This document shows positions 9,843-63,999 of a stretch of DNA of 64,000 bases, piece by piece (positions within the stretch are counted from its first letter, which is position 1; the number at the start of each line of letters is the position of its first letter). Source of the DNA: Sulfobacillus acidophilus (GTDB lineage: Bacteria > Bacillota > Sulfobacillia > Sulfobacillales > Sulfobacillaceae). The DNA lies in NCBI GenBank assembly GCA_003023745.1, contig PXYV01000002.1:62001-126000 (forward strand), written 5' to 3'. The translations under genes and the position numbers were made by a program. The notes beneath the pieces are model-generated. The model searched no databases. It saw only the letters and a list, made by a program, of their open reading frames with translations, and was not told the DNA's origin.

Positions 9843-9845
9843 GCA

Positions 9846-10628
9846 CTAATCCTCCCGTCCGAGCACAACCCCAGTTTTCGACATGCCGAGGCGGTTGGCA
9901 CCTGCAGCCACAAGATCCAGAGCCTCTTGCCAGGAATGAATTCCCCCCGATGCTTTGACACCTACGGTGGCGCCCACCGTGTCGCGCAGCAGAGCGACAT
10001 CTTCCACAGTAGCTCCCCCGTGTCCAAACCCGGTCGAGGTTTTGACAAAGTCGGCTCCGGCGGCGACAGACAACAGAGCAGCAATCCCCTTCTCATCGGT
10101 GGTCAAGAGGCCCGTTTCGAGAATCACCTTTAAGATGACGGGAGAGGGAGCCGCTGCCCGGACAGCTCTCAAATCGGCCAGGACGGCGTCATAGGCGCCC
10201 GCTTTCAAATACCCTATCGCGATGACCATGTCTAACTCTTGTGCTCCTTGATCAACACACCATTGGGCTTCGTATGCTTTTGCCGGTGTCGCCATAGCTC
10301 CTAAGGGGAATCCGACAACCGCTGCGATTTGCACGGCGTCCCCCAAGCGTGTGTGCGCCAGCGGGACATATTGGCTGTTAATGCAAATGCTATACGTACC
10401 CCATTCCTGCGCCTCTTGGCAAAGCCGCTCAATCGCGCTTGGTGTAATTTCGGCATAGAGGGCCGTGTGGTCAATATAACGTGCTAAACTGGCGCGGTTC
10501 GGCAGAACCGGGGCTGACCAGGACGTACGTGTCAATTGCAGCAGGCGTTGTTGTTCTTCTGCGCTTAAATACGGCTCAATGCGTTGATACCACTCGTTCC
10601 ATTGATTCAAAACTACACCTCCGCTCAA
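9846..10628 (-). CDS. deoC: Deoxyribose-phosphate aldolase
   Basis: This class I aldolase splits 2-deoxyribose-5-phosphate into acetaldehyde and glyceraldehyde-3-phosphate. The Schiff-base lysine is in FVKTSTGF and the second catalytic lysine in VGVKASGGI, both in the expected order. The core (ARYIDHTALYAEITPSAIERL onward) is full length. About 40 residues precede it (WNEWYQRIEPYLSAEEQQRL), an N-terminal extension seen in some family members. The gene overlaps the upstream permease by four bases and is followed after three bases by the phosphorylase, so translation is likely coupled along the operon. Confidence 0.93.
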   Translation of the reverse strand: MSGGVVLNQWNEWYQRIEPYLSAEEQQRLLQLTRTSWSAPVLPNRASLARYIDHTALYAEITPSAIERLCQEAQEWGTYSICINSQYVPLAHTRLGDAVQIAAVVGFPLGAMATPAKAYEAQWCVDQGAQELDMVIAIGYLKAGAYDAVLADLRAVRAAAPSPVILKVILETGLLTTDEKGIAALLSVAAGADFVKTSTGFGHGGATVEDVALLRDTVGATVGVKASGGIHSWQEALDLVAAGANRLGMSKTGVVLGRED

Positions 10629-11983: not shown

Positions 11984-12071
11984 CCTGGTTCCTCCTTTTT
12001 TAGAGACGTGAACTCCACACCGCGCACGTGAAAGTCAATAACTGCACTCAAGAGATCAGACGTCCAATGTC

Positions 12072-12100
12072 ATTATAGAAATGGGTCGGTTGCTTGTAAA
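12072..12100 (-). promoter_or_regulatory. Sigma-A-type promoter of the permease-deoC-pdp operon
   Basis: On the minus strand TTTACA (12100-12095) is followed after exactly 17 bases by a perfect TATAAT (12077-12072). Transcription would start near 12065 and give a leader of about 80 bases before GTG 11983. The leader contains two copies of TTCACGT about 20 bases apart, a possible regulator site. Confidence 0.7.
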
Positions 12101-12273
12101 TATTATGCTGGGTTCCCGATTTGCCATTCCTCGTATAGGCGGGTGGCGCGTAGGCGAAAGAATGTTCATGGCCAAGTATAGCTATTCCTAAGTAACGTGC
12201 GAATCCTCAATGTCCTTCGGAGTCCACCGCCAACGAAACGGGACGGGATCCTGAGTGAGCCAATCAATAGACG

Positions 12274-12760
12274 CTAACATCCGGTCAGAAGTTCATCCGG
12301 AGAGTTCACCCGGATTTCCTTCAGCAACTGTTTCGACAGCTTCGCGAAAACCTCGATCAGGTTCAGCCATGACGCATTTTTCGGCGTCAAGACGAAATCA
12401 CAACAATTGGGCACCGTCGCTAAATAGGCTCGGGTTTCGCGCGAGGTGTGCGCGGAATGATTATCCAGGATAATTTGAATCTTGAACCCCGGGGGATATT
12501 TCTGGTCGAGCGCTTGCAAAAACTCGACGAACTCGGTGCTCCGATGGCGTGGGCGGACCATGCCCAGGATTTCGCCGCTCGCGAGATCGATCCCGGCCAG
12601 GAGGCTTACCGTGCCATGCCGGACGTATTCGTGGTCCCTTGGCCAGGCGCCCTGGCCTGTGGCGGGCTGGAGCCGGTCGGGTGGGTGTCTTGGTGCCGAG
12701 CGCCTGAATGCCGGACTTTTCATCGGATGACCATCGGACGGTGGGCTATCCGTGATCAGC
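12274..12760 (-). pseudogene. IS630-family transposase remnant
   Basis: The minus strand holds the C-terminal part of an IS630-type DDE transposase. The first catalytic Asp context (SSDEKSGIQALGTK) is in one frame near 12710. The frame then shifts to RDHEYVRHGTVSLLAGIDL, the second catalytic Asp (IILDNHSAHTSRETRAYLATVPN region) and the terminal Glu (SWLNLIEVF) at about 12350. A frameshift near 12650 and loss of both ends make it inactive. No flanking inverted repeats are evident. It lies just after the 3' end of the acyl-CoA dehydrogenase gene. Confidence 0.85.
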
Positions 12761-12802
12761 GACGAGGCGTCGTGAGTCCCGAGTCCGAATCCGGGCTTGT
12801 CC

Positions 12803-13954
12803 TTATCCTTCAATGTCCTTGCGCAATTGCGCGGCAATAATATTCTTTTGAATTTCGGAGGTTCCTTCGTAGATACGGGTAATGCGGGCATCGCGATAAA
12901 AGCGTTCAATGGGGTAGTCGGCGATGTATCCGATACCACCATGAATTTGCACAGCTTTGTCGGCAACGCGGTTATACACTTCTGATCCGTACAGCTTTAA
13001 CATGGCGGCTTCTTTGATCACATTTGCACCTTGGTCGACTAGCCAGGCGACGTGATAGGTCATCCAACGGAGCGTTTCAATTTCTGTGGCCATGTCTGCT
13101 AAATAATGCTGGATCACTTGCTGATCGAAAATGGGCTTGTTAAACTGGTGGCGCTCCAAGGCGTATTGGGTTGACCGTCGCAAAAGATATTGGCATGACC
13201 CCAGCGAGCGGGCCGCCAGGCCGGAGCGTCCGTTGGCCAGTATCTTGAGGGCGTTGACATAGCCTTCGCCTTCTGGTCCTAGGCGGTTTTCTTCGGGAAT
13301 TTCAACGTCCTCAAAAAATATTTGGGCCGTATGTGAACCACGTAGTCCCATTTTTTTCTCAACGGTGCCCACCCGAAAGCCGGCAAATTGGGGCTCGACA
13401 ATGAATGACGTGATGCCCTTGGCGCCCCTGGTGGGGTCGGTGACCGCCATGACGGTAAAGACTTGGGCTTCGGGGGCGTTGGTGATGAAGACTTTTTGGC
13501 CATTTAAAATATAGCGGTCGCCTTTTTTGACGGCGCGGCTTCGTAGCGCAGCGGCGTTGGAACCCGCTTCGGGTTCGGTTAGGGCAAAAGCCCCAAGCCA
13601 TTCACCTGTCGCCATCTTGGGAAGATAGCGCGCTTTTTGTTCGGCGTTGCCAAAAGCGACAATTCCGACGGAACCGATGCCGTTGTGCGCGCCCAGAATG
13701 GTTGTATAGCCATTGATCGTCTGCCCTAACTCTTCAAAAATGGCGCACTTGTCCACCATGTTAAGGCCTAATCCCCCGTATTCCTCGGGAATGCTTAGCC
13801 CGAACAACCCTAGCTGCCTTGACTGCTGCAAAATCTCTTCGGGTACGTGGTCTTGCTCTTCAATTTGGGCAGCTTTGGGCTCCACTTCGTGGGCAATAAA
13901 GTCCGCAACGGCCGACTTCATTTGCAGAATTTCGGGCGAGAGGGTGAATTCCAA
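12803..13954 (-). CDS. Acyl-CoA dehydrogenase
   Basis: The FAD-dependent enzyme introduces an alpha,beta double bond into an acyl-CoA and passes electrons to ETF. At 383 residues it is full length. Signatures are GAFALTEPEAGSNAAALRS near residue 125, the ACAD C-terminal block (QIHGGIGYIADYPIERFYRDAR) and the catalytic Glu context IYEGTSEIQ at the usual position near residue 365. The start is TTG 13954 with GGAGGAG seven bases upstream. It is monocistronic: an IS630 remnant lies downstream, a gene-free stretch upstream. The catalytic Glu position is that of short/medium-chain enzymes, but the exact acyl chain (butyryl, isovaleryl and so on) cannot be told. Confidence 0.92.
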   Translation of the reverse strand: MEFTLSPEILQMKSAVADFIAHEVEPKAAQIEEQDHVPEEILQQSRQLGLFGLSIPEEYGGLGLNMVDKCAIFEELGQTINGYTTILGAHNGIGSVGIVAFGNAEQKARYLPKMATGEWLGAFALTEPEAGSNAAALRSRAVKKGDRYILNGQKVFITNAPEAQVFTVMAVTDPTRGAKGITSFIVEPQFAGFRVGTVEKKMGLRGSHTAQIFFEDVEIPEENRLGPEGEGYVNALKILANGRSGLAARSLGSCQYLLRRSTQYALERHQFNKPIFDQQVIQHYLADMATEIETLRWMTYHVAWLVDQGANVIKEAAMLKLYGSEVYNRVADKAVQIHGGIGYIADYPIERFYRDARITRIYEGTSEIQKNIIAAQLRKDIEG

Positions 13955-14699
13955 GGGCAGTCTCCTCCATTATGTGATCGCGAAAATTAATTAGGAGCTG
14001 CGATCTATCTCGGCGATGTAACTCACCATTATGTTAGCACGCTCAGCCTGGAGTTCCTAGCGACCAATGTTGGCATTCTCCGAGGACCCAGATGGGGAAC
14101 CATCGATGCAAACAAGGGGCCATGGTCTCGGCCCGGCAGCGGGCCACCGAGTACAAGTTTGGGGAGAGGGGCTGCGAAATACAATTGTTTCCTGTGACTG
14201 TATGGTCGCTATCCTCTGTTGACGGCAAGCATTATGACCCCAACAATCATGGAAATGCAGTTATCCACGCTGCGCTGTCAAGGAGTCCTTCATGAGCCGA
14301 CCCTTGACAGATTGTGAATTTGTGGGAAAACTCGGCCGTTGCCGATCATGCCGTCTGACTACTATTGGCGAGTGAACGGGTCGTTTCGCGCGAAAACGAC
14401 TGCGGACGACCGACTCGGTTCCGCCGAAGTGCCCCAAACAGTTCGAAGTTACAATCTTGGGACGCCGGGGTGTGCTGGAGCAACAGCGTGCCTGAGTATT
14501 CGTCACTAGTAGGGTTTTTGTGGTGGAACCTAACCCCTGGCGTCACGATTGTGTCAAACCACAAGAATTCTTGCTGGCCAAGGATATGTATCCACTAGCT
14601 CCGAATCCCAGCTGTCAAAAGTACGTGAAGGCTCTGACGCGTAAAGACTGGTTGGCGACTGTGCGGTCAGTGCCATCACTGAAAAGAGGGGGTTCAATC
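13955..14699. other. Gene-free divergent spacer with inverted repeats
   Basis: This spacer lies between the minus-strand acyl-CoA dehydrogenase and the plus-strand zinc dehydrogenase. Two perfect inverted repeats stand out: 9-bp arms at 14275-14283/14302-14310 and 7-bp arms at 14380-14386/14394-14400. No gene with a ribosome binding site was found. Promoters for both flanking genes should lie here, but no convincing -35/-10 pair was identified. Confidence 0.4.
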
Positions 14700-15833
14700 G
14701 TGAAAGCTGTTGTTTACGAAAAGCCATTTCAGGTGACAGTGCGGGACGTGCCGGATCCAAAAATCCTGCATCCGTCTGATGCCATTGTCAAAATTACGAC
14801 AAGCTGTATCTGCGGGTCGGACCTGCACATGTATGAAGGACGTACGGCTGCCGAACCGGGAATTGTATTTGGTCACGAAAATATGGGGATCATCCAAGAG
14901 GTGGGGTCAGCAGTCAGTCGTCTCAAGGTGGGTGACCGCGTGGTGATGCCGTTCAACATTGGGTGTGGTCACTGCCAAAACTGCGAGGCGGGATTTACTG
15001 GATTTTGCACCGAAGTAAATCCGGGATTTGCCGGAAGTGCCTACGGCTATGTTGCAATGGGGCCATATCCCGGGGGCCAGGCGCAGTACTTACGCGTGCC
15101 TTGGGCGGACTTTAACGCGCTATCACTGCCGGCGGGCACAGAACACGAAGAAGACTTTGCGCTGTTAGCGGACATATTTCCGACCGGATGGCACGGAGTG
15201 ACCTTATCGGGATTTCAGCCCGGAGAATCTGTCGCGGTATTCGGGGGTGGACCGGTTGGTGCCATGGCTGCCTATAGTGCCGTCTTGCGCGGGGCATCAG
15301 AAGTGTATTTGGTGGACCGCGTGCCGGAACGGTTGGCCAAGGGACGATCTATTGGCGCGATTCCCATTAATTTTGAGGACGGTGATGCCGTTGACCAGAT
15401 TCTGGCTTTGCGACATGGAGCCATGGTTGACCGAGCTGTGGATGCCGTGGGATATCAGGCGGTTCAAAATGGGAAAGAAGTCCCAAACACAGTTTTAGTG
15501 TCTATGGTTCGTGTCGTCCGGGCCACAGGTGGATTGGGAGTACCAGGCCTTTACGTTCCCTCTGACCCGGGTGGTGTGGATCCATTAGCCAAAGAAGGTT
15601 TCTTGTCATTCCCGGTGGGCAAGTTTTTCGAAAAAGGGCTGAAGATGGGTACCGGACAGTGCAATGTCAAGTCGTATAATCGCTATCTGCGTGACCTGAT
15701 CATCGTGGGAAAGGCCCAGCCTAGCTTCATTGTCTCGCACCAGATTACCATTGATGAAGCGCCCGACGCCTATCGAAAATTCGATCAGCGCATCGAAGGC
15801 TACACGAAGGTCCTGATCCACCCCAACAGTTAG
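14700..15833 (+). CDS. Zinc-dependent alcohol dehydrogenase, formaldehyde-dehydrogenase-like
   Basis: This medium-chain dehydrogenase of 377 residues has the catalytic zinc ligands in CICGSDLHMYEG and GHEN, and the structural-zinc cysteines in GCGHCQNCEAGFTGFC. A Rossmann motif (VFGGGPVGAM) lies near residue 180. The long inserts and the C-terminal part match the glutathione-independent formaldehyde dehydrogenase (FdhA) group, which oxidises formaldehyde or other aldehydes with NAD. The start is set at GTG 14700 because AGAGGGGG precedes it and the conserved domain begins there. The longer frame from 14520 has no similarity. A strong terminator follows at once. The true substrate is not certain. 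Confidence 0.85.
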   Translation: MKAVVYEKPFQVTVRDVPDPKILHPSDAIVKITTSCICGSDLHMYEGRTAAEPGIVFGHENMGIIQEVGSAVSRLKVGDRVVMPFNIGCGHCQNCEAGFTGFCTEVNPGFAGSAYGYVAMGPYPGGQAQYLRVPWADFNALSLPAGTEHEEDFALLADIFPTGWHGVTLSGFQPGESVAVFGGGPVGAMAAYSAVLRGASEVYLVDRVPERLAKGRSIGAIPINFEDGDAVDQILALRHGAMVDRAVDAVGYQAVQNGKEVPNTVLVSMVRVVRATGGLGVPGLYVPSDPGGVDPLAKEGFLSFPVGKFFEKGLKMGTGQCNVKSYNRYLRDLIIVGKAQPSFIVSHQITIDEAPDAYRKFDQRIEGYTKVLIHPNS

Positions 15834-15849
15834 TGATGACGCGGCGCGT

Positions 15850-15885
15850 CGAGAAAGAGGCAACCCCCTCTTTCTCGGCTTTTGT
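15850..15885 (+). terminator. Rho-independent terminator
   Basis: Eleven-base perfect arms (CGAGAAAGAGG / CCTCTTTCTCG) flank a six-base loop, followed by GCTTTTGTTTT. It ends the dehydrogenase transcript only a few bases before the aquaporin ribosome binding site, so aquaporin expression must rely on readthrough or on a start inside or near this hairpin. Confidence 0.9.
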
Positions 15886-15900
15886 TTTGGAGGGATGGCA

Positions 15901-16713
15901 ATGACAAGCGAATACCAACTGTGGCAGAAAATGCTGGCAGAATGTATTGGGATTTTCTTTCTTGTATTTGTTGGAGCAGGAACGGCGGCTATGACATTGA
16001 TATTAAACCACGGGGCGCCGCGTTATACGACTCATGATATCGGCATCGGGGCATTGGGGGGAAGTGCCGATTGGTTGGCGATTGGTCTGGCTTTTGCATT
16101 TGCCATTATGACGATGGTCTATATATTTGGCCATGTCAGCGGTGCTCACATTAACCCCGCTGTTACCTTAGCGCTCTTAGTTCGCGGGTACATCCGCGGC
16201 AAGGAAGCGGTTGGCTATTGGGTCGCCCAGTTTATCGGAGCAATTTTGGGAGCGTTTGCGATTGCGCTGGTATATGGGCGGGCAGGATGGCTCATTGGTG
16301 GGCTAGGAGCCCCGGGCCCGTTTCCGGGTGTGCCCTTGTGGCGCGCCGCAACGGCCGAATGTATAGGACAGTTTGGCTTGGTGCTCGGTGTTTATGGCCT
16401 TGCTGTCAATAAGAAGGCACCCAACGGCTGGGCCGGCCTAATTATCGGACTGAACATTGCCGGATTGATTGTTTTGCTCGGGAATGTGTCGGGTGCCGCG
16501 ATCAATCCGGCACGCACGGTGGGACCAATATTTGCGGACTGGGTATTGGGTGGCGCCGATCTTTGGCGCATTGTGCCAGCTTATTTGATCGCGCAAATTG
16601 TGGGTGCGCTGGCTGCGGCTTGGATTTATCCGATAATCGCTGATTTTACGCGGGCAAGTCGAACGCCGTCCCAGACGGTTATCCAACCGGATGACCAGAT
16701 CCCGGTTCGTTGA
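15901..16713 (+). CDS. MIP-family channel (aquaporin/glycerol facilitator)
   Basis: The inner-membrane channel of 270 residues has six predicted helices and both NPA boxes: SGAHINPAVT near residue 82 and SGAAINPARTVGP near residue 200. The second half carries the Arg after NPA that forms the selectivity filter. It would pass water or small neutral solutes; glycerol specificity cannot be decided. ATG 15901 is preferred over ATG 15895 because GGAGGG directly abuts the first ATG and is six bases from the second. The gene stands between a terminator upstream and a convergent regulator downstream, 25 bases away. Confidence 0.9.
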   Translation: MTSEYQLWQKMLAECIGIFFLVFVGAGTAAMTLILNHGAPRYTTHDIGIGALGGSADWLAIGLAFAFAIMTMVYIFGHVSGAHINPAVTLALLVRGYIRGKEAVGYWVAQFIGAILGAFAIALVYGRAGWLIGGLGAPGPFPGVPLWRAATAECIGQFGLVLGVYGLAVNKKAPNGWAGLIIGLNIAGLIVLLGNVSGAAINPARTVGPIFADWVLGGADLWRIVPAYLIAQIVGALAAAWIYPIIADFTRASRTPSQTVIQPDDQIPVR

Positions 16714-16738
16714 GGCAAATACCAGCGCTTCGTTCCTG

Positions 16739-17863
16739 TTACGATCCGTGGAATCTGTGGATGTTCTCTAGCAAGGTATGACCTTCCAATGCCATCCACA
16801 GATTAGTTAGCTGTTCGGTGTCTTTAATTGTGATGCCGAGCAGCTTTTCGGCGTGATGCACCCGATACAAGACGGTATTGGGATGCACATAGAGATTGTG
16901 CGCTGTTTTAGATAGAGATTGTCCACACGCCAAGTACTCTTTGAGGGTGGCTAAAGTCGCTTGGTGTTCGTCCTGTAATAGTGGGCCAAGAACGGTGTTG
17001 ATTAAATCTTCCAAACTCTCGGGTGTCATTTGCAGGAGAAAGCGAATCATGTGACGCTCGACTGCATCATTGATGAGACCGTCTAAGCCAAATCGGTTAG
17101 CGAACTGCATCAACGACTGGGTTTCCTTCAAAATTTCCGGGAATGCCGTTAAGTTCGGCATCATTTGCAGATAGGCGCGGATGGGGAATGTTGCTTCGCG
17201 TGTCCACTGGTCCAACCAATGCTCGACGTGATACCGGGATTTCTCCCGAGACCAAGGCTGTAGGATGAGAAGACCATCGGGAAGATACGCTAGCCATGGG
17301 AATTGACGGCGGTAGCGCCACGCTTGGGCAATGAGATAGCGTCGCAACACTTCCATGCCCTGAAAGGGGATCGGCATCGCCGTCTCGAATGCCATTAGCG
17401 CCTTACCTGCGCTATCGTCTAGACCGCAGAGCGATAAAAGTTGAACAACCTCCGGCGTCAGGCCGTACTCCATGACGAGTCGCACTTTTTCACCGCGGCG
17501 TTCCGCTTCGGTTTCGGCCCATTCGGTCAACTCCATGATGGTTAGCGCTGTTTTTAAGAGCAGCGTTTGAAATGGCTTGCTTTCGCCGAGGGACGTCGTA
17601 TCAAAAGCACTGACAAGCGTCGCAAACACCTCGCCATGAAGAACCAGCGGGTGACGGTACCTAAGTCCTAAAGTCTGGTGCTCGGATGTCGCGATACAAA
17701 GCGGAATGCCATAGCGATCGTACAAGACAAAATTAGGGGTGTTCAAGAAGTCTGTCCATTGATCGATAAGGGTTTGCAACTCGTCCAATAATTCATTGCC
17801 GTAGGCAACGGCTGTCTGTACCATGTGTTCCCATTCGCTCGGATTTATTAACGGCATTGTCAT
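16739..17863 (-). CDS. PucR/CdaR-type transcriptional regulator
   Basis: The C-terminal ~60 residues form the PucR-family helix-turn-helix (TLKEYLACGQSLSKTAHNLY, then HPNTVLYRVHHAEKLLG), which in this family activates purine-catabolism or sugar-acid genes. The preceding ~310 residues are an effector-sensing region without a clear named domain. The start is placed at ATG 17863, where GAGGAG lies seven bases upstream. The 34-residue longer version from 17965 has no ribosome binding site. It converges on the aquaporin. Its target could be its own gene, the aquaporin/dehydrogenase pair or the distant nucleoside operon; the sequence does not decide. Confidence 0.85.
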   Translation of the reverse strand: MTMPLINPSEWEHMVQTAVAYGNELLDELQTLIDQWTDFLNTPNFVLYDRYGIPLCIATSEHQTLGLRYRHPLVLHGEVFATLVSAFDTTSLGESKPFQTLLLKTALTIMELTEWAETEAERRGEKVRLVMEYGLTPEVVQLLSLCGLDDSAGKALMAFETAMPIPFQGMEVLRRYLIAQAWRYRRQFPWLAYLPDGLLILQPWSREKSRYHVEHWLDQWTREATFPIRAYLQMMPNLTAFPEILKETQSLMQFANRFGLDGLINDAVERHMIRFLLQMTPESLEDLINTVLGPLLQDEHQATLATLKEYLACGQSLSKTAHNLYVHPNTVLYRVHHAEKLLGITIKDTEQLTNLWMALEGHTLLENIHRFHGS

Positions 17864-48072: not shown

Positions 48073-48544
48073 TTACGGCGCGTTTGGTAATATAATTCCT
48101 AAAACAATTCGCACGCTGCGGTCGGTAGAGCCCATATTGCGCTTCATCAAAATCTCCTCCTTTCGCATTGGTTTCGGTTTCTTGCTCCAATTTCATTATC
48201 CGTGCACAAATGTCGGTAACCTATGGCTATTCGTTCCTCTGGTAAGGACCATTGGATCCGCATACCAACGCCAATGGACTTACCTCAACAGGGGGGTGCA
48301 ATGAGCGATTGTGGTGGGGCATATGCCATGTGGTGAGGTGTTAGTGTGGGTGATCACAGAGACGACCTAACGGGTGACCTGGAAGTTGGCTAGGGACCTT
48401 TGTTGAAAAATCGTTCGACATCACTCACGGTTTTTCTTGCACCGACCTAGCCTCTGACGGATGATTATTATAAGAACATTAGTTCTTGTATATAGGGTAG
48501 ATGGCCAGACGTAAAATTCTTATAATTAGGGAGTGAACAGACTG
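48073..48544. other. Gene-free stretch upstream of the Rpn-like gene
   Basis: It contains the palindrome AAGAAC-ATTA-GTTCTT (48472-48487) and a TATAAT (48521-48526) without a good -35. It is otherwise empty. Confidence 0.4.
48472..48487 (+). promoter_or_regulatory. Palindrome resembling a Gram-positive LexA (DinR) box
   Basis: AAGAACATTAGTTCTT has the core GAAC-N4-GTTC of Firmicute SOS boxes, 58 bases upstream of the Rpn-like start. The inner four bases and outer flanks deviate from the full consensus (CGAACRNRYGTTYG-type), so LexA binding is only a hypothesis. Confidence 0.4.
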
Positions 48545-49495
48545 ATGGAGTTGTTAGATCCTCGAATCGACCTCGTGTTCCGTGGTATTTTCGGGGTCGA
48601 GCGGAATACCGATTTGTTGTTAGATTTGGTGAACGCGGTGTTTATTGATGCGGAGCAACCACGTGTCTCGCAAATCATGCTCTTAAATCCATTTAACTTG
48701 CCAGAAAGCGCGAACGAGAAGACTAGCGTGGTCGATATTAAGGCACGCACCGAATCTGGCATGGTAATCGATGTCGAGATGCAAGTAGCTAATCTGCGGG
48801 ATATTGTTCCGCGTAGTCTCTATTATCTTAGTCGAATGGTGAGTGATCAGGCGTTCAGTGGCTTTCAGTATCGTGATTTGCGAAAGACGGTGGCTATCAA
48901 CATTTTGGACTTTCGCTATTTCTCGTCTGATCGGGACCATACCGTGTTTCGCTTGCGTGACGATTTAGGAGAGGTGGTCTATCCGGATTTGCTGGAGTTG
49001 CATTTCCTGGAGTTGCCGAAATTTGACATCAATAAGTGGGAATATACCCGGCGTTCGCTCTCGCGATGGCTTGCATTTTTCCGACACGGCGGTGGCGAGC
49101 GCGGAAAGGAGTTCATGATGAATGATCCGATGATCCAAAAGGCTCAAGCGGAACTGGAACGACTGAGCCATGATCCGGCAGCTCGCGAGGCCTACGAGGC
49201 GCGGCTGAAGTGGCTGAACGACTACGTATCGGCTATGGGTCAAGCTCGGGATGAGGGATGGGAGCAAGGCCTTCAGGAAGGCCGCGAAGAAGGGCGACAA
49301 AAAGGGCGCGAAGAAGGGCGCGAAGAAGGCCGAGAAGAAGGGAGACACCAAGGCAGATTAGAGGGGCGAACTGAAGCGATGCGTGATGTGGTGCAACGAC
49401 TGATGATGCAGGGGTGGCAGGCACCACGCATTGCTGAACTCTTGGGGATTTCCGTTGGCGACGTGGAACGGATTAGCTCGATGTCGTCGGACTGA
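48545..49495 (+). CDS. Rpn-family PD-(D/E)XK nuclease/putative transposase
   Basis: This 316-residue protein opens with MELLDPRIDLVFRGIFG, the Rpn/PDDEXK_2 family start. The catalytic core has VVDIKARTESGMVIDVEMQV (Asp, then ExQ-like), fitting the (D/E)xK-type nuclease fold, followed by IYYLSRMVSDQAF-like segments (here SLYYLSRMVSDQAFSG). A charged repeat of the type EEGREEGRQKGR occupies about residues 245-280, then a small HTH-like tail (IAELLGISVGDVERI). ATG 48545 is preferred over GTG 48533 because the AGGGAG site is adjacent to the latter. Family members stimulate recombination in E. coli. Confidence 0.88.
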   Translation: MELLDPRIDLVFRGIFGVERNTDLLLDLVNAVFIDAEQPRVSQIMLLNPFNLPESANEKTSVVDIKARTESGMVIDVEMQVANLRDIVPRSLYYLSRMVSDQAFSGFQYRDLRKTVAINILDFRYFSSDRDHTVFRLRDDLGEVVYPDLLELHFLELPKFDINKWEYTRRSLSRWLAFFRHGGGERGKEFMMNDPMIQKAQAELERLSHDPAAREAYEARLKWLNDYVSAMGQARDEGWEQGLQEGREEGRQKGREEGREEGREEGRHQGRLEGRTEAMRDVVQRLMMQGWQAPRIAELLGISVGDVERISSMSSD

Positions 49496-55479: not shown

Positions 55480-57039
55480 TTAAGGGGTCACCTCAAATGG
55501 TGAACGAGGGATCGCGGAGAATATTTTAGCCTGACCATTAGAATAGACTAGGTTCTGGCGATTAAAGTCAGGGAGCGGATCTTTCAGTTCGATCGCATCC
55601 GCTACGATGTTGGGCGACCATAGCCACAAGGAATATCGCGGCAGTGACGGGATCCCTCCGCCGGACACGTACCAAGGGTCATTTTTGGGCCACCAGGTCG
55701 CGGCTACATTTCGCAGGCGTTCATCGGGTCCCGCCCACAGGTATTGTGGTCCTTGGCGATGGCGGAGATAGAATAGGACGGCTTGTTTTTCTGCGGACGA
55801 GTAAAAGAGCCACTGGTTGGAGATGGCGGGATCGAGTGTGGTTTCGAGGATGCTCATCGTCAAAAACAGGCCCATGAAGACGATGGCTAAAAGGTTCAGA
55901 GTTTTTGCCAGGTGGTTTTGCCGATACAGCGACGGTACGATCCGACTAATTCCCAAGGCCACGAAAGGCACTGCAAAGAGGGCGAAGTAAGTAAAATTCC
56001 GCACTTCCAGATTGTTCCCGGCGGCTAGTCCAGTCAAGTCCACTGGCACTGCGACAAAGACCAATGCGGCGATGGCTGCATAAAAGCTCAACATGACAAG
56101 CCAAGGAAGGGAAAGGGGTGTACGGCGACGAAATGGAACCCAGATCATGAGTACCCATGCCAAAAAGGACGCAGTAATGGTGATCCAGCGAAAGGCCGAA
56201 GTGGTCAGATAGACAGGCACACTGACCCACTGTTCGGCAGGGGCACTGAGGGGATTGCTCGACGCCTTTTGGGTCAGAAACAAGACTCTCAGCTTCTGCA
56301 AGGTTAACAACAGGAGGTGGGCGTCTGACCGGGCTGGGGGAAAGACGAGCCAGACGTCAACCACGATAATGACTAAAGAAATAATGATGAGGCGAAATAC
56401 CGGGGTGAGCGCAGCGGCTTTGGGGAATCCCGTGCGCCAGGCGAACAGGCTGCCGCTAATTAGATAGGCGACTAAACCCCAAATAATCATGATGGTGAAA
56501 TAATCGTTCACGATGACATTGAGAGTCATGCACATATAAAAGATGACTTCCCATGTGAACCGGTCTGTCAGCGTTGCGCTCTTGAGGAAACGCACCAGTG
56601 CCCAAGCTCCAGCTAGAATAAGGACGATGGTGAGTTTCTCGTGATTTCCGCGCAAGAGCGTGAACATGATGTTGGGAACCATCACCATGAGTAAGACGGA
56701 AAGCTCTGATAGGGCGATATGTTCTGTAAGCTCTACATAAGTGACCAGAGCCATCACGAAGACGAATGTGACGCCAAGGAAAGGGAGAATGGTGGTGTTA
56801 ATAAATCCTGCCGGAAGGTGGGTTGTCAGTTGCATGATCGCGAGCCACAACTGGTAGCCAAATCCATGGGGATATTGCGTCGGGAAGATGATGGTGTGAT
56901 CACGCGCGGTTAAAATGGCATCATGGGTGAAAATGGCGGTATCGTTTTCGGTCCACAATCCGCGGTATCGGATGATTAAGTAGGCCGCATAGAACAAGCC
57001 TAAGCTCAGAACAAGCCCGAAACTTGGCTTAAACCGCAT
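55480..57039 (-). CDS. Polytopic membrane protein, GT-C-like
   Basis: The 519-residue protein has about 10-12 hydrophobic helices. An early external segment (WTENDTAIFTHDAILTARDH) has acidic residues in the usual position of GT-C catalytic Asp/Glu, and a soluble C-terminal part of about 90 residues follows (QGPQYLWAGPDERLRN). The long open frame upstream to 57492 is not used: it has no similarity and overlaps the previous gene. The chosen ATG 57039 lies 17 bases past that gene's stop and lacks a clear SD, so coupling is likely. A role in surface glycan assembly is inferred. Confidence 0.75.
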   Translation of the reverse strand: MRFKPSFGLVLSLGLFYAAYLIIRYRGLWTENDTAIFTHDAILTARDHTIIFPTQYPHGFGYQLWLAIMQLTTHLPAGFINTTILPFLGVTFVFVMALVTYVELTEHIALSELSVLLMVMVPNIMFTLLRGNHEKLTIVLILAGAWALVRFLKSATLTDRFTWEVIFYMCMTLNVIVNDYFTIMIIWGLVAYLISGSLFAWRTGFPKAAALTPVFRLIIISLVIIVVDVWLVFPPARSDAHLLLLTLQKLRVLFLTQKASSNPLSAPAEQWVSVPVYLTTSAFRWITITASFLAWVLMIWVPFRRRTPLSLPWLVMLSFYAAIAALVFVAVPVDLTGLAAGNNLEVRNFTYFALFAVPFVALGISRIVPSLYRQNHLAKTLNLLAIVFMGLFLTMSILETTLDPAISNQWLFYSSAEKQAVLFYLRHRQGPQYLWAGPDERLRNVAATWWPKNDPWYVSGGGIPSLPRYSLWLWSPNIVADAIELKDPLPDFNRQNLVYSNGQAKIFSAIPRSPFEVTP

Positions 57040-57056
57040 TTTCGCACGCGCAGGTC

Positions 57057-59474
57057 TTACTGTTGTGTCCACGAAATTCGCCTCCAGGTATAACCGACTG
57101 CCCACAACATCAACCCTAATATCACGGCAACCTCGACAAAATGGCCCGGATCGGCTGGACTCAGGTCTAATAGGAGTGGCCGTCGTACGCGGATTACTTT
57201 GATCATTTGGCGCTTCAGTGTATGGTGATTGGCTGTAATAGAAAGTACTTGGCGACCTAGTCGGTGCGGAACCCAATGGAGCACTACTGAGTGGCGGATA
57301 TGCCCGGAGAGGGTGACTTGGTGCACCCCCACAACTCGGCCGTTTTCCTTGAGTTGGATAACGCCCGCCCACGGCACTGTGCCCTCGTTGGCGAGCACGA
57401 GGCGTGCGGTTTGTAGTGCGAAGAGTCGGGGTGCAGAGAGTGTGCGGCTTATCAGCCGGACATGGGCCGGCGTGGCGCGAGAAATGTTCCATGCGTGTGT
57501 TTTCATGGTGTACTGCAGTTGATAGAGGCCTTTCTTAAGATGTGTTGCCGATGCGCCCAACACAGCCGCAGCATTCACCGCCCTGGCCAGATGCATCCAT
57601 AGCGCGATGTGGGTGGACGACAAAGTCACGTTGATCACGTGGGCGTGAGGAAAGTGGACGATTGGTCCCTTGAAGTCGTCAACCCACGAGGATAGCGTCA
57701 AGGGCGGTCGGCCTGTTTGATATGACGCGACGGTCCGCGCAAACGCACTCCAAGCCGCCTTTCCCTGGGGTACAGGCAAGAGGCGATTGGAAAGAGACTG
57801 GTTCGGGCGTGAAAGTGTAACCGTGGCTGGAGTAATGGAAAGCAAGAACGGATTCAGATCATAGAGGGAATCTAACGTGTGTCCTTTCCAATGATAACTT
57901 TGCAGACGGCCAGAAATGCGCTGCAACATCCACACGTTTTGGTAGGGGCTGCCGCCAATGGCGGTTGTGCGCAAAATAAGACGATGGCCGAGATTTTGGA
58001 TGCCTCCTTGGGCATTGAGTAGATGAACGAGGCGGTCGACGGGGCTAACGTACAATTCGGGCTTGCGAAAATAGTCGTTGCTATATTCACCGCGAAATCC
58101 GACAGGTAACCCCCGATGGGAACTATCAGTTAGAGCATCGTTGGGCAGCAGAAAGGGGTGGGAGAGATAGGGTGTGGGGGTCGAGCTCAATCCTCCTAGC
58201 CAGGTCCACAGAGTGGGAGATCCGGAGCCACCATAAAAATAGTTGCCCTCCGAACCCGGATAGCCATTACCTAATTGGACAAATGTGACGAGCGGCCACT
58301 TGCGGTTAAGCACGGTGGACGGCAAGGTGCGACTGTTTAAACCATAGAATTGAGCGGGACCGATTTTGACCAAGTGCCTATCCTGGTAGAAGCCGGCCAA
58401 TTGCAATGAGTAATCCCACACTTGCGGATTGGTGGTCTTCCAGGAGACGCGAAAGAGGGTCCGCTGAATATTGGTGGGGGGCAATCCACCCGTATCGCCT
58501 GGCGGGAAGTTTTCTTCCCGAAAGATCATGTCAGCTAGTCGACCTGGTTGATAACCATAAAACACAAAAGGCGACTCAAAGTCCACGTGTGGCGGGGGAG
58601 AATAGGAGTTGATATCGTATATCCCAGCATATTCAAATCCAACGTACGGAAATTGCTCCAGCGCATATCCTAGAACATTAAAGAAAATGGGGCTGGGATT
58701 AATGGTAAACCAATTGGCATTGGCAATGCCGTCGCCTGGCAGATACCCGATACTGAAATAGGGGAATAACGGAATTAAACTGGATTGCACGCGAAAGGGC
58801 GGCGATCCAGCCATTCGGGCGGTGACACCAAACACGGGGAATCCAAAACCATGGACCGTCTTCGATTGGTATTGGCGTCCGAGTGCGTGGGAGACTTCCC
58901 ACTGAGGGACCCCCTGGTGGCCGCCAATTGTAATCCTGGAGGCCACAGACTGATCACTTTTCGGGGTTGATCGATTGTGCCCCGGCCAGACGGTTTCGAC
59001 CAGGTTATAGTCAGTTTTATTATGAACAATCCATCCTCCACCTCGGGAAACTAGCCTAATGGTGGGTAATGCGTGACGGACGGCCAGATGATGAGCGAGG
59101 GTCATGACCTCCAGCGCCGGGTGTTTGGGTCCCGAAGCGTAGAATGTCGCCTGGCCACGCTTGCGAAATTGCTGAAAGTCAACCACTAGCCAAATATTGG
59201 TGATGTTGCCGAATGCAAACGAATACGTTACGTTGTGCACGCCGTAGCGTTTCCACCAATCGGGTCCGGATGCTAACGGCAAAGCCTTGCCACTCTGGCT
59301 ATATGCCCGGACCCACACCGTGACCCCATGAATGTGAAGGGCAATGGGTAAAGGAGCCGTGGCGGCCTGAACTGGTGGAGATAGCGCTGCAAACGTGGAA
59401 AGACTCAGGCTTAGGGCCACTAACCGACAGAAATGCTGATGGAGTTTGCTATGAAATACCTTAATTGACAACAT
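57057..59474 (-). CDS. Large secreted, C-terminally anchored protein of unknown family
   Basis: The 805-residue protein starts with a signal peptide (RLVALSLSLSTFAALSPPVQA; cut after AQA-like Ala) and ends with one membrane helix (VEVAVILGLMLWAVGYTW) and a short basic tail. The mature part is rich in Gly, Pro, Trp, His and Tyr (patterns such as GGHQGVPQWEVS and FGFPVFGVTARMAGSPPF), with no recognised catalytic motif. A C-terminal Ig-like segment (GVIQLKENGRVVGVHQVTLSG) is likely. It would sit on the outer face of the membrane. ATG 59474 is supported by an apparent promoter that leaves almost no leader. It is followed by a GT-C-like gene. No named family is recognised; a polysaccharide-binding or -processing role is guesswork. 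Confidence 0.75.
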   Translation of the reverse strand: MLSIKVFHSKLHQHFCRLVALSLSLSTFAALSPPVQAATAPLPIALHIHGVTVWVRAYSQSGKALPLASGPDWWKRYGVHNVTYSFAFGNITNIWLVVDFQQFRKRGQATFYASGPKHPALEVMTLAHHLAVRHALPTIRLVSRGGGWIVHNKTDYNLVETVWPGHNRSTPKSDQSVASRITIGGHQGVPQWEVSHALGRQYQSKTVHGFGFPVFGVTARMAGSPPFRVQSSLIPLFPYFSIGYLPGDGIANANWFTINPSPIFFNVLGYALEQFPYVGFEYAGIYDINSYSPPPHVDFESPFVFYGYQPGRLADMIFREENFPPGDTGGLPPTNIQRTLFRVSWKTTNPQVWDYSLQLAGFYQDRHLVKIGPAQFYGLNSRTLPSTVLNRKWPLVTFVQLGNGYPGSEGNYFYGGSGSPTLWTWLGGLSSTPTPYLSHPFLLPNDALTDSSHRGLPVGFRGEYSNDYFRKPELYVSPVDRLVHLLNAQGGIQNLGHRLILRTTAIGGSPYQNVWMLQRISGRLQSYHWKGHTLDSLYDLNPFLLSITPATVTLSRPNQSLSNRLLPVPQGKAAWSAFARTVASYQTGRPPLTLSSWVDDFKGPIVHFPHAHVINVTLSSTHIALWMHLARAVNAAAVLGASATHLKKGLYQLQYTMKTHAWNISRATPAHVRLISRTLSAPRLFALQTARLVLANEGTVPWAGVIQLKENGRVVGVHQVTLSGHIRHSVVLHWVPHRLGRQVLSITANHHTLKRQMIKVIRVRRPLLLDLSPADPGHFVEVAVILGLMLWAVGYTWRRISWTQQ

Positions 59475-59480
59475 ACGGTA

Positions 59481-59509
59481 ATTATTGCACAATTATTCCA
59501 ATCATTCAA
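59481..59509 (-). promoter_or_regulatory. Promoter of the large secreted protein, apparently leaderless
   Basis: On the minus strand TTGAAT (59509-59504), 17 bases, AATAAT (59486-59481). Start codon ATG 59474 lies only six bases past the -10, and no ribosome binding site precedes it. The transcript may begin at or within a base or two of the ATG. Confidence 0.55.
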
Positions 59510-59525
59510 GGGAAAGGCTGATATA

Positions 59526-60674
59526 GTGATCACGCTGATTTTGATAGTCGCCTGTATGATTGCTTTGAGTAAATGTTTATGGCTGTATTATGCCAGCATC
59601 CGTATAAAGACTGAGAGCCCCGACTGTGTACTTTTTCCCGAATCTTTTGAGCCATTGGTAAAGGTGTCACTCATTGTGCCGGCCTGGAATGACGCAGGTG
59701 TTCTCGAACGGTGTTTGAATGCGCTCGTCCGTGAAATGCGCACGGTAAAGATGCAATCCGAACTGATTGTGATTGCGGGCGGAGAAGATGCCAGTTACGA
59801 ACGGGCATTGGGCTGGAAAGCTCGTCAAGCGGATAGCTTAGATGTGACCGTTCTGGCGCAGTCCGCGCACGGAAAGAATCGTGCGCTCAACGACGGTGTC
59901 GTCAACGCTCACGGACAAATTCTCGTCCTAGTCGACGCGGATACCGAAGTGTTGCCCGGCTGGCTTCCGGCTTTGATCGAACCCCTTGTTCGCGGCCAGG
60001 CGGCTGCCACAACGGGCTGTTTTTGTCCCTTTCATAAGACATCGGTGTCTACCGTTTTCGTAATCGAGCAATACCTTGCACAAGTTGTGGGACGTCGTGG
60101 AAACTTATTTGGTGGCGGGACAATCGCATTGACACAGGAGATCTGGAGCCGAATCGGCGGATTTCCAAATGACGTGACAGTGGGTGTGGATTGGGATTTG
60201 ACGCAGAGGGTGCACCGTCGAGGGTATGTGACTAAGTTTGTGCCATCGGCGTCCGTGATGACAGAGATTGCCGAATCATGGTGGGAGTTCTGGCGCGCGG
60301 AAGTGCGCTGGCGTCGAGGTTGGTGGGCGCTGCAGCGAACGTTGAAAGCAAGAATGATGGCACTTTATACGGCAGTTACAAGCGCATTAATGTGTTGCTC
60401 ATTGGTCTTGTTAATTGGGGCGTTAATTGGGCCCCGCGATCTCCGCTACTTATTGGCATTGGCTGCACTGACGATTTTGATATGGTGTTTGGGACCATAC
60501 ATTGTGCGCATCGTCCTCTACTGGCGGCACACCCGCACAGCACTGACAAAACAAGATGTTGCGGCCTATTTGCTAGCCGCGTATGTGTCCTCGCTGGCTC
60601 TAATCGCAGGAATATTTACCCCCGGCCAACTTGCCCCGCATTTTAAGGGTCAACGGACGCGTGATGTGGCATGA
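59526..60674 (+). CDS. Family 2 glycosyltransferase, membrane-bound
   Basis: The 382-residue GT-A enzyme has an N-terminal helix, then VSLIVPAWNDAGVLERCLNA, the DxD-type motif LVDADTEV, and the processive-type block VGVDWDLTQRVHRRGYV (acid) followed by EVRWRRGWWAL (similar to the QxxRW motif). Three or more C-terminal helices follow. GTG 59526 follows AAAGG. The gene overlaps the next by four bases. It may build a polysaccharide or glycolipid. It is divergent from the large secreted protein, so one intergenic region of about 50 bases serves both. Confidence 0.88.
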   Translation: MITLILIVACMIALSKCLWLYYASIRIKTESPDCVLFPESFEPLVKVSLIVPAWNDAGVLERCLNALVREMRTVKMQSELIVIAGGEDASYERALGWKARQADSLDVTVLAQSAHGKNRALNDGVVNAHGQILVLVDADTEVLPGWLPALIEPLVRGQAAATTGCFCPFHKTSVSTVFVIEQYLAQVVGRRGNLFGGGTIALTQEIWSRIGGFPNDVTVGVDWDLTQRVHRRGYVTKFVPSASVMTEIAESWWEFWRAEVRWRRGWWALQRTLKARMMALYTAVTSALMCCSLVLLIGALIGPRDLRYLLALAALTILIWCLGPYIVRIVLYWRHTRTALTKQDVAAYLLAAYVSSLALIAGIFTPGQLAPHFKGQRTRDVA

Positions 60675-61237
60675 AAACCGGGTGGGATCGGTACTCGCAG
60701 GAAACACGTTACTTGTTGGATGTTGTCTCTTTTGCAGTGCATCTGGCGGCTCCTCAAAATCGTGTGATTGGGGTACATGCGGCTGCCCGGGAGTTATTCC
60801 TAGACTTGCAAGATCGATTAAGCCCACAGTATTCCCTGTTGTGGGAGAAGGATCCCGTGAGCACGAAGTCAGGCGTGATTCATTTGTTAAGCTGGGAATC
60901 TGGCTTGAGTGAACTGCATCTGTCGACAGCTGATTTTGTGGTGCTGGCGATGCGCAACCGATGCAGTTTCAAGAGCTTGAAATATGGAAAAAGGCCTTCC
61001 GAAAGTCTGGTTAAAGCGTTGCGATTGCTACGCCGGGACGGTTTTCGCGTGCAATCATGGGGCGTTTATGCACCGGGACAGTTAGCCTGGTACGAAATAG
61101 CGCTTACGGTTCGCCGATTGAACCGGCATGATCTCGCCTTTTATTTGAGCGACCGCGGGGACCTATCCCCGGTGGTGCACGGGGGATGGTGGGCGCGGTG
61201 GGCTAACTATGGGGTGCTAATGGGGGTGAGGGATTGA
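60671..61237 (+). CDS. Protein of unknown family in the glycan cluster
   Basis: The 188-residue protein has no signal peptide or membrane helix. It has a mixed alpha/beta pattern (LLDVVSFAVHLAA, NRVIGVHAAARELFLDL, DFVVLAMRNRCSF) and a C-terminal aromatic part (VVHGGWWARWANYGVL). A methyltransferase-like fold is possible but no SAM motif is visible. It overlaps the GT2 gene at its start and the barrel-type gene at its end by four bases each, so the three proteins are almost certainly made together in equal amounts. Function unknown. Confidence 0.75.
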   Translation: MKTGWDRYSQETRYLLDVVSFAVHLAAPQNRVIGVHAAARELFLDLQDRLSPQYSLLWEKDPVSTKSGVIHLLSWESGLSELHLSTADFVVLAMRNRCSFKSLKYGKRPSESLVKALRLLRRDGFRVQSWGVYAPGQLAWYEIALTVRRLNRHDLAFYLSDRGDLSPVVHGGWWARWANYGVLMGVRD

Positions 61238-62508
61238 ACAACTGGACGGATGCTGTTCATCAGGCTTTGGCTCGAGTGGACGGTTGGCTAGACAGCATGT
61301 GGACTAATCAGGGCTACACCGGTCCGATTGCACACTGGTGGGAAAGCAACTTCCTATATACGGGTCCATTGTACGATTGGCGTTACGAGGGTATTATTGA
61401 CGGATATCGCCTATTATTCCGCAAGACGGGCTGCCTTTCATATCTCTACAAGGCAATTAGAGCCGCCGATGTCGTCATTGCGGCACAGCTGTCGGATGGT
61501 CGCTATCGTAATTCCTCATTCCAATTTGGACCGGTGGCCGGGGGAACGCCACACGAAGCTGCAATCGATGCCGCCTTGTTTCGACTTGCCGAAGATCTGC
61601 GCACGATTGACCATAAGCGCGCGGCCCGTTACGAAAGGGCGGGCCTCATGAACATTCGCGAATACTGGGTGCGTACGCTGTGGACGGGAAGCGGCTTTGC
61701 CGACCAACCCACTAATCCGGTGTTAGTGGCAAACAAGCACGGCACCTTGTTAGAGGCATTGTGTGCGGGAGGTCTGGTCGATGGGTGCTGGAGTCAGTAC
61801 ATCGATACCTGTGTCCAAGTTATCTTTGTCTGTCAAGTCCCCCACGGCCCACAGGCAGGAGGCACGATCCATCGGGGTATTGGGCCTTCACGTTTGGCCA
61901 TCCCGATTTATACGGCGCGAGCGATGAATGGACTGGTTAGTTTGTATGAGCGCGATCCCCGACCCGAACTTAAAGAGGCGGTCCTTCGGTCGTTGCCTTT
62001 TTTTGCTCGAACTGTGGGTGATCACGGGGTGATTTGGGGCATTTACGGCGATGGACGGCGCGCGCGTTCGCCGGAAATGATTGCAGGATCGGGCGATGTG
62101 TTGCGGCTGTTGTGGAGGGTCCGCGATTGGGATTCGTCTGCAAACGCTCTGTTGGAGGGCCATCTAGACAAAATATTAAGACAACAACAGCCTGGCGGCG
62201 GATTTCCAACGGCTGCGGGATTTGCGGTTAAAGGCCGAGATCTCAGCCCTCATTGTGATGATGTGCGCGACGTGGTGCCGGTCGTGGGGTGGGTGGATAA
62301 AATGTTTCGCGCCCTAGTGTTGTTGAGCGACGCTGGGCCGACTAGGCACAAGCCAATTGCGCCGCAACCATATCGCCGAGTGGTCGGGTGGCGCGGACAC
62401 CCAGTGACGTGGGAAGAGACTCCAACAGACATCCGCATTCTGCGAAAAAACCAAGTGGTGTATCATTGGCCCAAGGGCCAATGGGCCCCTACTATTTATG
62501 CGTTGTAG
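61234..62508 (+). CDS. Alpha/alpha-barrel-like protein, possibly glycosidase or lyase
   Basis: The 424-residue protein has repeated helical hairpins with Trp, Gly and acidic loops (YDWRYEGIIDGYRLLF, GTPHEAAIDAALFRLAEDL, GGGFPTAAGF) that resemble the six-hairpin glycosidase fold. No family-specific catalytic pair is certain; Asp and Glu in EGIIDG and HEAAIDAA are candidates. There is no signal peptide, so it acts inside the cell or before export. TTG 61234 overlaps the previous stop; GGGGTGAGGG precedes it. It converges with a GT4 gene with a 13-base overlap. Substrate unknown. Confidence 0.65.
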   Translation: MNNWTDAVHQALARVDGWLDSMWTNQGYTGPIAHWWESNFLYTGPLYDWRYEGIIDGYRLLFRKTGCLSYLYKAIRAADVVIAAQLSDGRYRNSSFQFGPVAGGTPHEAAIDAALFRLAEDLRTIDHKRAARYERAGLMNIREYWVRTLWTGSGFADQPTNPVLVANKHGTLLEALCAGGLVDGCWSQYIDTCVQVIFVCQVPHGPQAGGTIHRGIGPSRLAIPIYTARAMNGLVSLYERDPRPELKEAVLRSLPFFARTVGDHGVIWGIYGDGRRARSPEMIAGSGDVLRLLWRVRDWDSSANALLEGHLDKILRQQQPGGGFPTAAGFAVKGRDLSPHCDDVRDVVPVVGWVDKMFRALVLLSDAGPTRHKPIAPQPYRRVVGWRGHPVTWEETPTDIRILRKNQVVYHWPKGQWAPTIYAL

Positions 62509-63656
62509 GGAATTTTAGGATGAAACTTCATCCGGTGCACCTCCACTGCCTGTTCACAGGCTTTTTCTAACGCATCGGCGATGACCGGCCAGGCGTAGTG
62601 ATTTTCAACATGCGTACGTCCCCGTCGGCCCATCTGACGACGTTTTGCGTCATGGCTCATCATCCACTGCATGCTGGCAAAAAGGGCGTTGTCATCATTG
62701 ACTGGAACTATTAGCCCCGTTGTATTGTGTGTGACGACGGACCGGACGCCAGGCAGATCCGTGGCAATAACCGGGGTGGCACACGCCATGGACTCGGCTA
62801 GCACCATGCCAAAAGATTCGGTACGGTTAGACGGAAGCACGGTGAAGTCGGCTGCCTGATAATACAGGGGAAGGCGACTGGTGGGACACTGGTCGTCAAA
62901 TCGAGTACGCTGTGCCAAACCGAGGCGGCAGGACAGTTCGACGAGCGACTGACGCGATTCGCCACGGCCGATAATGACGATGACAAGGCCGGGTATGCGG
63001 GCGGCCACGCGCAAGAGGGCCGGGACGTTTTTAAATCGGTGCGCGGCATCCAATCCGCCGACAAAGAGAGCCATGGGGCGCGACACCGGAAGTTGAAGCA
63101 TTTGTCGGGCCATAGCTTGGTCAGAGGGAACGAAGTGCGCAGTATCTACGCCGTTTGGTACTTCGACGGCACTGAAATTGGGGAAAAGACTGGAAAAATG
63201 GTCTTGGCTGACTGCAATTCGGATCGTCGACTGCTTTATCAGACGTCGCTCTTGAACCGTATTGTAGGCGATAAAAAGCCACTTCTTTATACCACCTGCC
63301 TCGACCAGGCGATTGTGATAGGTTAAGACAACTGGAGTCCGGTAGCGGGCCGCACTTGCCATGACCGCCTCGGCGCCGAAGATAAAGGGATAGTGGAGAT
63401 GGATGAGATCGTATCCTTTCAGCGCAGCCGAAAGGTGTGGCAAAAAGGGGGCATTGCCCACGGAAAAGAGCGCTGGCAGGCGCTTCACAAAAAGGGCGCT
63501 GGTTTCGAAAACATCTGTGATGCGTGGGCGAGCTATTGGGGTGATGACGGTCACTTGGTGGCCACGTTCGGCTAACAATCGGGCGTTGTGATAGGCGACG
63601 TAGCCCACTCCTCCGTGATAGGGCGGGAATGTGGCCGTAACTTCTGCGATCTTCAT
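62496..63656 (-). CDS. Family 4 glycosyltransferase
   Basis: The 386-residue GT-B enzyme begins MKIAEVTATFPPYHGGVGYV (Gly-rich acceptor loop) and has VEVPNGVDTAHFVP, VVIIGRGES-like (here IVIIGRGES) and the GT4 donor motif SNRTESFGMVLAESMACATPVIATD (residues include E-x7-E between TESFGMVLAE). AAAGGAGCG precedes ATG 63656. The upstream continuation to 63716 has no similarity. It probably adds one hexose to a glycan or glycolipid. Its 3' end overlaps the barrel-type gene by 13 bases on the other strand. Confidence 0.93.
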   Translation of the reverse strand: MKIAEVTATFPPYHGGVGYVAYHNARLLAERGHQVTVITPIARPRITDVFETSALFVKRLPALFSVGNAPFLPHLSAALKGYDLIHLHYPFIFGAEAVMASAARYRTPVVLTYHNRLVEAGGIKKWLFIAYNTVQERRLIKQSTIRIAVSQDHFSSLFPNFSAVEVPNGVDTAHFVPSDQAMARQMLQLPVSRPMALFVGGLDAAHRFKNVPALLRVAARIPGLVIVIIGRGESRQSLVELSCRLGLAQRTRFDDQCPTSRLPLYYQAADFTVLPSNRTESFGMVLAESMACATPVIATDLPGVRSVVTHNTTGLIVPVNDDNALFASMQWMMSHDAKRRQMGRRGRTHVENHYAWPVIADALEKACEQAVEVHRMKFHPKIPYNA

Positions 63657-63678
63657 GATACGCTCCTTTGTTTTCGGT

Positions 63679-63999
63679 TTAGCGAGTCTGTGGCTTGGGG
63701 GTTGACTGGCGGCCACTGAGCAAACGGTAAAATACTCGATTGAAGCATCTTAGTCCGGCGCGAACCCAAGGAGAATCACTCACTTCCAGCGGCAGCTCAC
63801 GCGCCATAGTCGGCAAAATGTGGGTCAATGGCGGAAAATCACGGGTTGGCAGGGGACTGGTGAAGGGGTGTTGGTGTGCTTTTGTAAACGCTTTCCAATA
63901 GGCCCAACCATGCAAGGCGGCTGAGATGGCCGCTAAGGCCGCGACTATTCGCAAACTCCAGGCGATGCGTCGGCGCAGTTCGTGAGAGTAGAGTTTGTG
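63679..63999 (-). CDS. C-terminal end of a membrane protein (5' end outside window)
   Basis: The frame is open to the right edge. The visible part begins HKLYSHELRRRIAWSLRIVAALAAISAALHGWAY at the edge (helix core IVAALAAISAALHGWAY), then a soluble tail of about 65 residues with many Pro and Arg. The gene upstream is probably a membrane glycosyltransferase or related enzyme of the same cluster, with the GT4 gene 22 bases downstream. The family cannot be identified from this fragment. Confidence 0.6.
   Translation of the reverse strand, partial: HKLYSHELRRRIAWSLRIVAALAAISAALHGWAYWKAFTKAHQHPFTSPLPTRDFPPLTHILPTMARELPLEVSDSPWVRAGLRCFNRVFYRLLSGRQSTPKPQTR

Follow-up and report, generated by a model that had tools for sequence, protein, structure and literature searches.

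Three closely packed genes at positions 59526-62508 of a stretch of Sulfobacillus acidophilus DNA raise the question of whether a membrane glycosyltransferase, a small protein and a barrel protein form a single unit that makes and edits a glycan inside the cell, as the original prediction from the DNA letters had it, or whether the real unit comprises fewer genes. In this study, we analyzed the window, i.e. the whole stretch of 64,000 nucleotides, and compared it with related genomes.

Organization of the three genes

The genes and their junctions, with the evidence for each, are as follows.

59526..60674, plus strand: membrane-anchored GT2 glycosyltransferase, 382 aa, GTG start (Pfam PF13641, 5.7e-21; alignment; hydropathy; subfamily HMM, 7e-34)
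60671..60674, plus strand: ATGA overlap between the GT2 and small-protein genes (ATGA at the same junction in L002)
60671..61237, plus strand: small protein, 188 aa, ATG start (AlphaFold2, fold search, motif check, alignments)
61234..61237, plus strand: TTGA overlap between the small-protein and barrel genes (ATGA or GTGA in L002, L017, L045-L048 and the archaeal L067)
61234..62508, plus strand: barrel protein, 424 aa, TTG start (AlphaFold2, PDB structure matches, invariant residues)

The three open reading frames and both four-base overlaps lay exactly where the original prediction had placed them. The corresponding locus of a congener (L002, genome G023) has the same gene order, and both of its junctions are ATGA overlaps, which backs the TTG start of the barrel gene; its GT2, small and barrel proteins are 47%, 43% and 63% identical to those of the window, respectively. 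The overlaps had also been taken to mean equal synthesis of the three proteins and a complex between them, and neither claim was supported. In the window, 9 of the 35 same-strand neighbor pairs overlap by 4 or 8 bases; thus, such overlaps by themselves indicate only ordinary operon packing, and we rejected them as a sign of a complex.

Hydropathy analysis revealed no segment of at least 1.6 in the barrel protein, which bears out the proposed absence of a signal peptide. Both the barrel and the small protein are predicted to be cytosolic, and the GT2, with one N-terminal (residues 1-25) and several C-terminal (residues 277-367) membrane segments, is predicted to reside in the membrane. In the GT2 subfamily alignment, D88, a DxD motif (residues 137-139; D137 and D139), D222 and R261-W262 were invariant, and the QxxRW motif was not found, the sequence there being A-E-V-R-W in the window and K-Q-A-R-W in the relatives. 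The earlier label "processive-like" therefore holds for the membrane segments and the D, DxD, D motifs, but processivity itself is unsupported because QxxRW is missing. The relatives of EpsD, PgaC/IcaA and MftF, which are GT2 enzymes with C-terminal membrane segments, have the GT-A motifs D, DxD, D and RW and the membrane segments in common with the window GT2; however, the latter scored far under all NCBIfam cut-offs and does not contain QxxRW.

Surrounding polysaccharide locus

The neighboring genes on the minus strand are listed below.

62496..63716, minus strand: GT4 glycosyltransferase, convergent with the barrel gene, with a 13-base overlap of the tails
57057..59492, minus strand: 811-aa protein with a signal-like N-terminal stretch (judged by eye), a C-terminal membrane segment and a large exterior part
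55480..57492, minus strand: polytopic membrane protein, whose real start is probably near residue 150 of the open reading frame

In relatives, the usual locus comprises two GT2 genes, a GT4 gene, a small open reading frame of ~175 aa, the barrel gene, the membrane GT2 gene and homologues of the 811-aa and polytopic genes, and in most of these loci the GT4 gene immediately precedes the small gene or is close to it. The features of the 811-aa protein make its export likely, and the polytopic protein is a candidate polymerase or ligase. Their genes are conserved across the order, and neither protein (window 55480-59492) had any Pfam or NCBIfam match; they may constitute a further undescribed pair. 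A flippase (PF01943) is encoded in L017, with homologues in the L016, L045 and L047 loci, and a flippase is also found in the archaeal L067. The combination of a flippase with several glycosyltransferases points to a Wzx-type pathway in the relatives, from which the window itself is judged.

Some other features were observed around these loci. In L018 (13323-13997, Pfam match) and L017 (1046-1717, a near-identical protein), a sortase gene lies at the border of the polysaccharide locus, as does a gene for a small exported-looking protein. In the window, a transposase of the PD-(D/E)XK family (PF12784) is encoded at 48533-49495, a few kb upstream of the locus. An extracellular polysaccharide of S. 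acidophilus is reported to be dominated by mannose (PMC13226494); no tie to this locus is claimed.

Distribution of the genes in bacterial relatives

A profile search detected the barrel protein in 17 of the 154 class genomes. The HMM of the small-protein family was positive in 15 of these 17 genomes and in 0 of the 137 others, and a small partner recognizable without a barrel was found in none of the 154. The two genomes missed by the HMM, those of the window and G023, encode a same-sized protein in the equivalent position and with the same overlap. Among the 15 non-congeneric barrel genomes, 14 had a family member within the fetched stretch; the exception, L021, is a 6-kb contig without the small gene, and the member is located on another contig of that genome (G004). 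In most loci, the stop codon of the small gene overlaps or nearly touches the start of the barrel gene, and in L022, L023 and L044 the small gene lies elsewhere within the locus. Fisher tests on the occurrence counts gave very small p-values, but they assume independence, and the genomes are related, so the counts are not independent events.

With respect to sequence divergence, barrel relatives with 33-39% identity were present in five other genera of the family. Direct searches beyond the genus with the window small protein, and with the window GT2 at E 1e-20, returned nothing in the family. In the phylum sample, the small protein had only one match, which was marginal and stop-interrupted, and for the module in the wider phylum there were only weak partial matches; viral contigs and phages contained no relatives.

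The GT2 followed the pair more loosely. In the window, L002, the archaeal copy described below and ten further loci, it lies next to the pair or elsewhere in the locus, and it accompanied the barrel in 13 of the 17 barrel genomes; conversely, the subfamily was strong (E below 1e-60) in 14 of the 154 class genomes, 13 of which also have the barrel. These figures count in favor of the original view, with the GT2, the small protein and the barrel as a single obligate complex, the GT2 being a processive synthase of a glycan that the barrel then trims. We consider such an arrangement quite improbable. The locus of G510 has kept the GT4, GT2, 811-aa and polytopic genes but is missing the small and barrel genes between GT4 and GT2, and in G003 the pair lies on contig C227 beside a DUF4012 gene, whereas the GT2/GT4 locus is on C119. 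In addition, no GT2 of this subfamily could be detected in G004, G009 and G010, which possess the pair (the G496 contig breaks off within the barrel gene, so the presence of GT2 there is not judgeable), and the missing QxxRW motif also argues against a processive synthase. Because G510 has the GT2 and lacks the pair, and G003 splits them by contig, the tight unit is the small-barrel pair, from which the GT2 is separable.

The same distribution bears on a simpler view, that this is an ordinary exopolysaccharide operon in which the genes merely ride together, with the small protein and the barrel each performing a tailoring role unrelated to that of the other. Stop/start overlaps are indeed common in the window, and the entire locus recurs as well as the pair. 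However, the pair is lost or relocated as a unit, independently of the remaining locus, and its two genes co-occur more strictly than the 811-aa and polytopic genes, which are found without the barrel or the pair in G006 and G008. We regard this view as unlikely to be correct. As for the original prediction of one undescribed three-gene module, the small, barrel and GT2 genes do recur across an order and in an archaeon, a literature search found no description of such a module, and the small and barrel genes are together in 17 of the 17 barrel genomes. This part of the prediction is supported, with the correction that the GT2 is a frequent but separable third partner.

The relocated pairs, found in two other genera, have different surroundings. 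In L020 (G003, 9453-12729), the pair is outside the usual locus and near the DUF4012 gene (Pfam). It is also outside the usual locus in L024 (G009, 11901-17621) and L025 (G010); here, a large gene near the pair is similar in size to the DUF4012 gene, and both match L046 3-1274. In G009 and G010, the pair is beside a PilZ-domain gene, which follows the barrel gene in L024 and L025, hinting at control by c-di-GMP.

An archaeal copy of the pair

A plasmid of the halophilic archaeon DL31 carries Halar_0628 (233 aa), an ATGA overlap, the barrel gene Halar_0629, the GT2 gene Halar_0630, a GT4 gene and a flippase gene. The archaeal barrel is 39.6% identical to that of L018 over 341 residues and retains the invariant residues of the family, and the GT2 is 37% identical to a bacterial relative over 304 residues. 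For the small protein, short matches to the small protein of L002 (E 0.002, single comparison) and to the family profile (P 0.026) fell in the same C-terminal stretch, and no match to the window small protein was obtained. These weak matches are consistent with, but do not establish, common ancestry of the archaeal and bacterial small proteins. Elsewhere in this region (L067, plasmid CP002989.1, 9302-17278), the first GT2 shares 42% identity with a GT2 from the bacterial locus. This suggests that more than the pair is common to both domains.

The small protein resembles a methyltransferase without the SAM motif

The AlphaFold2 model of the small protein was of mediocre quality (pLDDT 73, pTM 0.71) and showed a class I methyltransferase-like fold; all 50 structural matches listed were methyltransferases, with a best Z of 12.0 (VIA-align). 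Six or seven short strands were assigned in this model, compared with the seven strands of the Rossmann-like fold of class I SAM-dependent methyltransferases, which it resembles (Z up to 12). In contrast with those enzymes, the glycine-rich SAM motif I (GxGxG) at strand 1 was absent from 15 of 15 members of the small-protein family, and two G.G.G matches near the C-terminus of two relatives were chance-like. Since the SAM-binding glycine motif is missing, we call the small protein a pseudo-methyltransferase. Pfam, NCBIfam and PDB sequence searches with the small protein gave nothing above cut-off, and one member of the family had a weak TylF match (E 0.0046).

The window small protein itself scored no better than shuffles against the family HMM, and profile-profile comparison also failed; what places it in the family is its synteny, size, predicted fold and short motifs. 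It is probably a diverged member of the family. The predicted fold is not independent evidence of this, since the model was built on the distant family alignment.

The barrel protein: fold and candidate active site

The barrel model was of higher quality (pLDDT 82, pTM 0.89) and consisted of an (alpha/alpha)6 barrel followed by a C-terminal four-strand beta domain at about residues 380-413, in agreement with the alpha/alpha-barrel-like protein predicted earlier. Structural matches in the PDB with Z of 24-28 (VIA-align) included YPO2471, AGE/cellobiose 2-epimerases, GH76 and GH88/GH105. No match above cut-off was obtained for the barrel in Pfam, NCBIfam or PDB sequence searches, and the model suggests a new family within the six-hairpin glycosidase/AGE fold class. 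This fold is common to hydrolases, lyases, epimerases and non-sugar enzymes and therefore implies no reaction; thus, the fold is well supported, and a particular reaction is not.

Comparison with the individual relatives of the fold gave the following picture. First, members of the AGE superfamily (N-acylglucosamine 2-epimerase, cellobiose 2-epimerase and YihS) are likewise cytosolic (alpha/alpha)6 barrels of ~400 aa, with Z of 24-27 against the window barrel. They use two catalytic histidines at the N-terminal ends of helices 8 and 12. No histidine was found in helices 224-240 and 351-364 of the window barrel, a comparison made at the level of whole helices; the only invariant histidines in the family alignment are at 34, 107 and 213, and the Pfam GlcNAc 2-epimerase model matched 0 of 10 barrel members at E 0.1. 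Second, GH76 endo-mannanases share the six-hairpin fold (Z 24-27 for GH76 and GH88/GH105 together). Weak matches to Pfam GH76 (PF03663) were obtained for 4 of 10 barrel members, all under cut-off (best E 0.0023; 16.5 bits against a cut-off of 25.9 where a score was shown), the window barrel gave no match to PF03663, and the adjacent Asp-Asp that forms the GH76 catalytic pair was not invariant in the barrel alignments. Third, the unsaturated glucuronyl hydrolases of GH88/GH105 matched in fold (Z 24-25) and gave no Pfam match. The barrel family thus has no Pfam match to GH76 or GH88/GH105 above cut-off, and the window barrel further differs from these enzymes in having no signal peptide. Finally, the top structural match was YPO2471 (7tem) of Yersinia pestis, a protein of unknown function (Z 27.7, 325 residues, 3.1 A), but the identity was only 11% and YPO2471 is exported by annotation.

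The six-hairpin fold keeps its active site at the N-termini of the inner helices. Residues invariant in the barrel family, the archaeal copy included, were D48, W49, R50, Y51, H107, E108, N167, K168, Y226, R229, D346, D355 and K356, and in the model the polar ones map to the N-terminal ends of inner helices 2, 4, 6, 8 and 12 or close to them, i.e. to the inner-helix mouth. Alternatively, the barrel could be a non-catalytic glycan-binding subunit that, with the small protein, positions the nascent lipid-linked glycan for GT2/GT4 or measures its length. Such a role would fit the fact that no known catalytic dyad can be assigned, the lack of histidine in the helices corresponding to the catalytic-histidine helices of AGE, and a small partner that also looks like a pseudoenzyme. 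However, a dozen positions at the mouth, all charged or polar, are invariant in bacteria and an archaeon alike, which is more than a binding scaffold usually retains, and we consider a purely binding role rather unlikely.

Proposed function of the pair

The pair is probably an undescribed two-part enzyme that tailors a surface polysaccharide inside the cell, and cytosolic glycan editing, as the original prediction had suggested, is plausible in view of the modeled fold and the locus. In a Wzx-type pathway, cytosolic assembly of the repeat units on a lipid carrier precedes their flipping. The barrel, with a putative active site at the (alpha/alpha)6 mouth, would act on a sugar of an intermediate linked to a lipid or a nucleotide, with epimerase, lyase or glycosidase activity being most likely. 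The small protein would be a methyltransferase-fold pseudoenzyme that has lost SAM binding and serves as an obligate partner of the barrel for folding, substrate gating or docking, perhaps in a physical complex, and the adjacent membrane GT2 would usually supply or consume the tailored intermediate. In this full form, a two-subunit cytosolic carbohydrate-tailoring enzyme, made up of the barrel and a pseudoenzyme partner and working in a Wzx-type surface polysaccharide pathway, is a proposal that we judge about evenly balanced between right and wrong.

Little is known about enzymes that modify surface glycans within the cell ahead of export, and sugar enzymes with a pseudoenzyme partner are rarer still. 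Here, two protein families absent from Pfam and NCBIfam are inherited together across a bacterial order and on a haloarchaeal plasmid. Natural loss in G510 and natural separation in G003 make the role of the pair testable by comparing the polysaccharides of near relatives. More tentatively, and in our view less likely than not, the pair may represent a new two-component enzyme class of Bacteria and Archaea, in which a cytosolic six-hairpin barrel would edit lipid-linked polysaccharide intermediates, depend on a methyltransferase-derived pseudoenzyme and have moved with it between loci as a unit.
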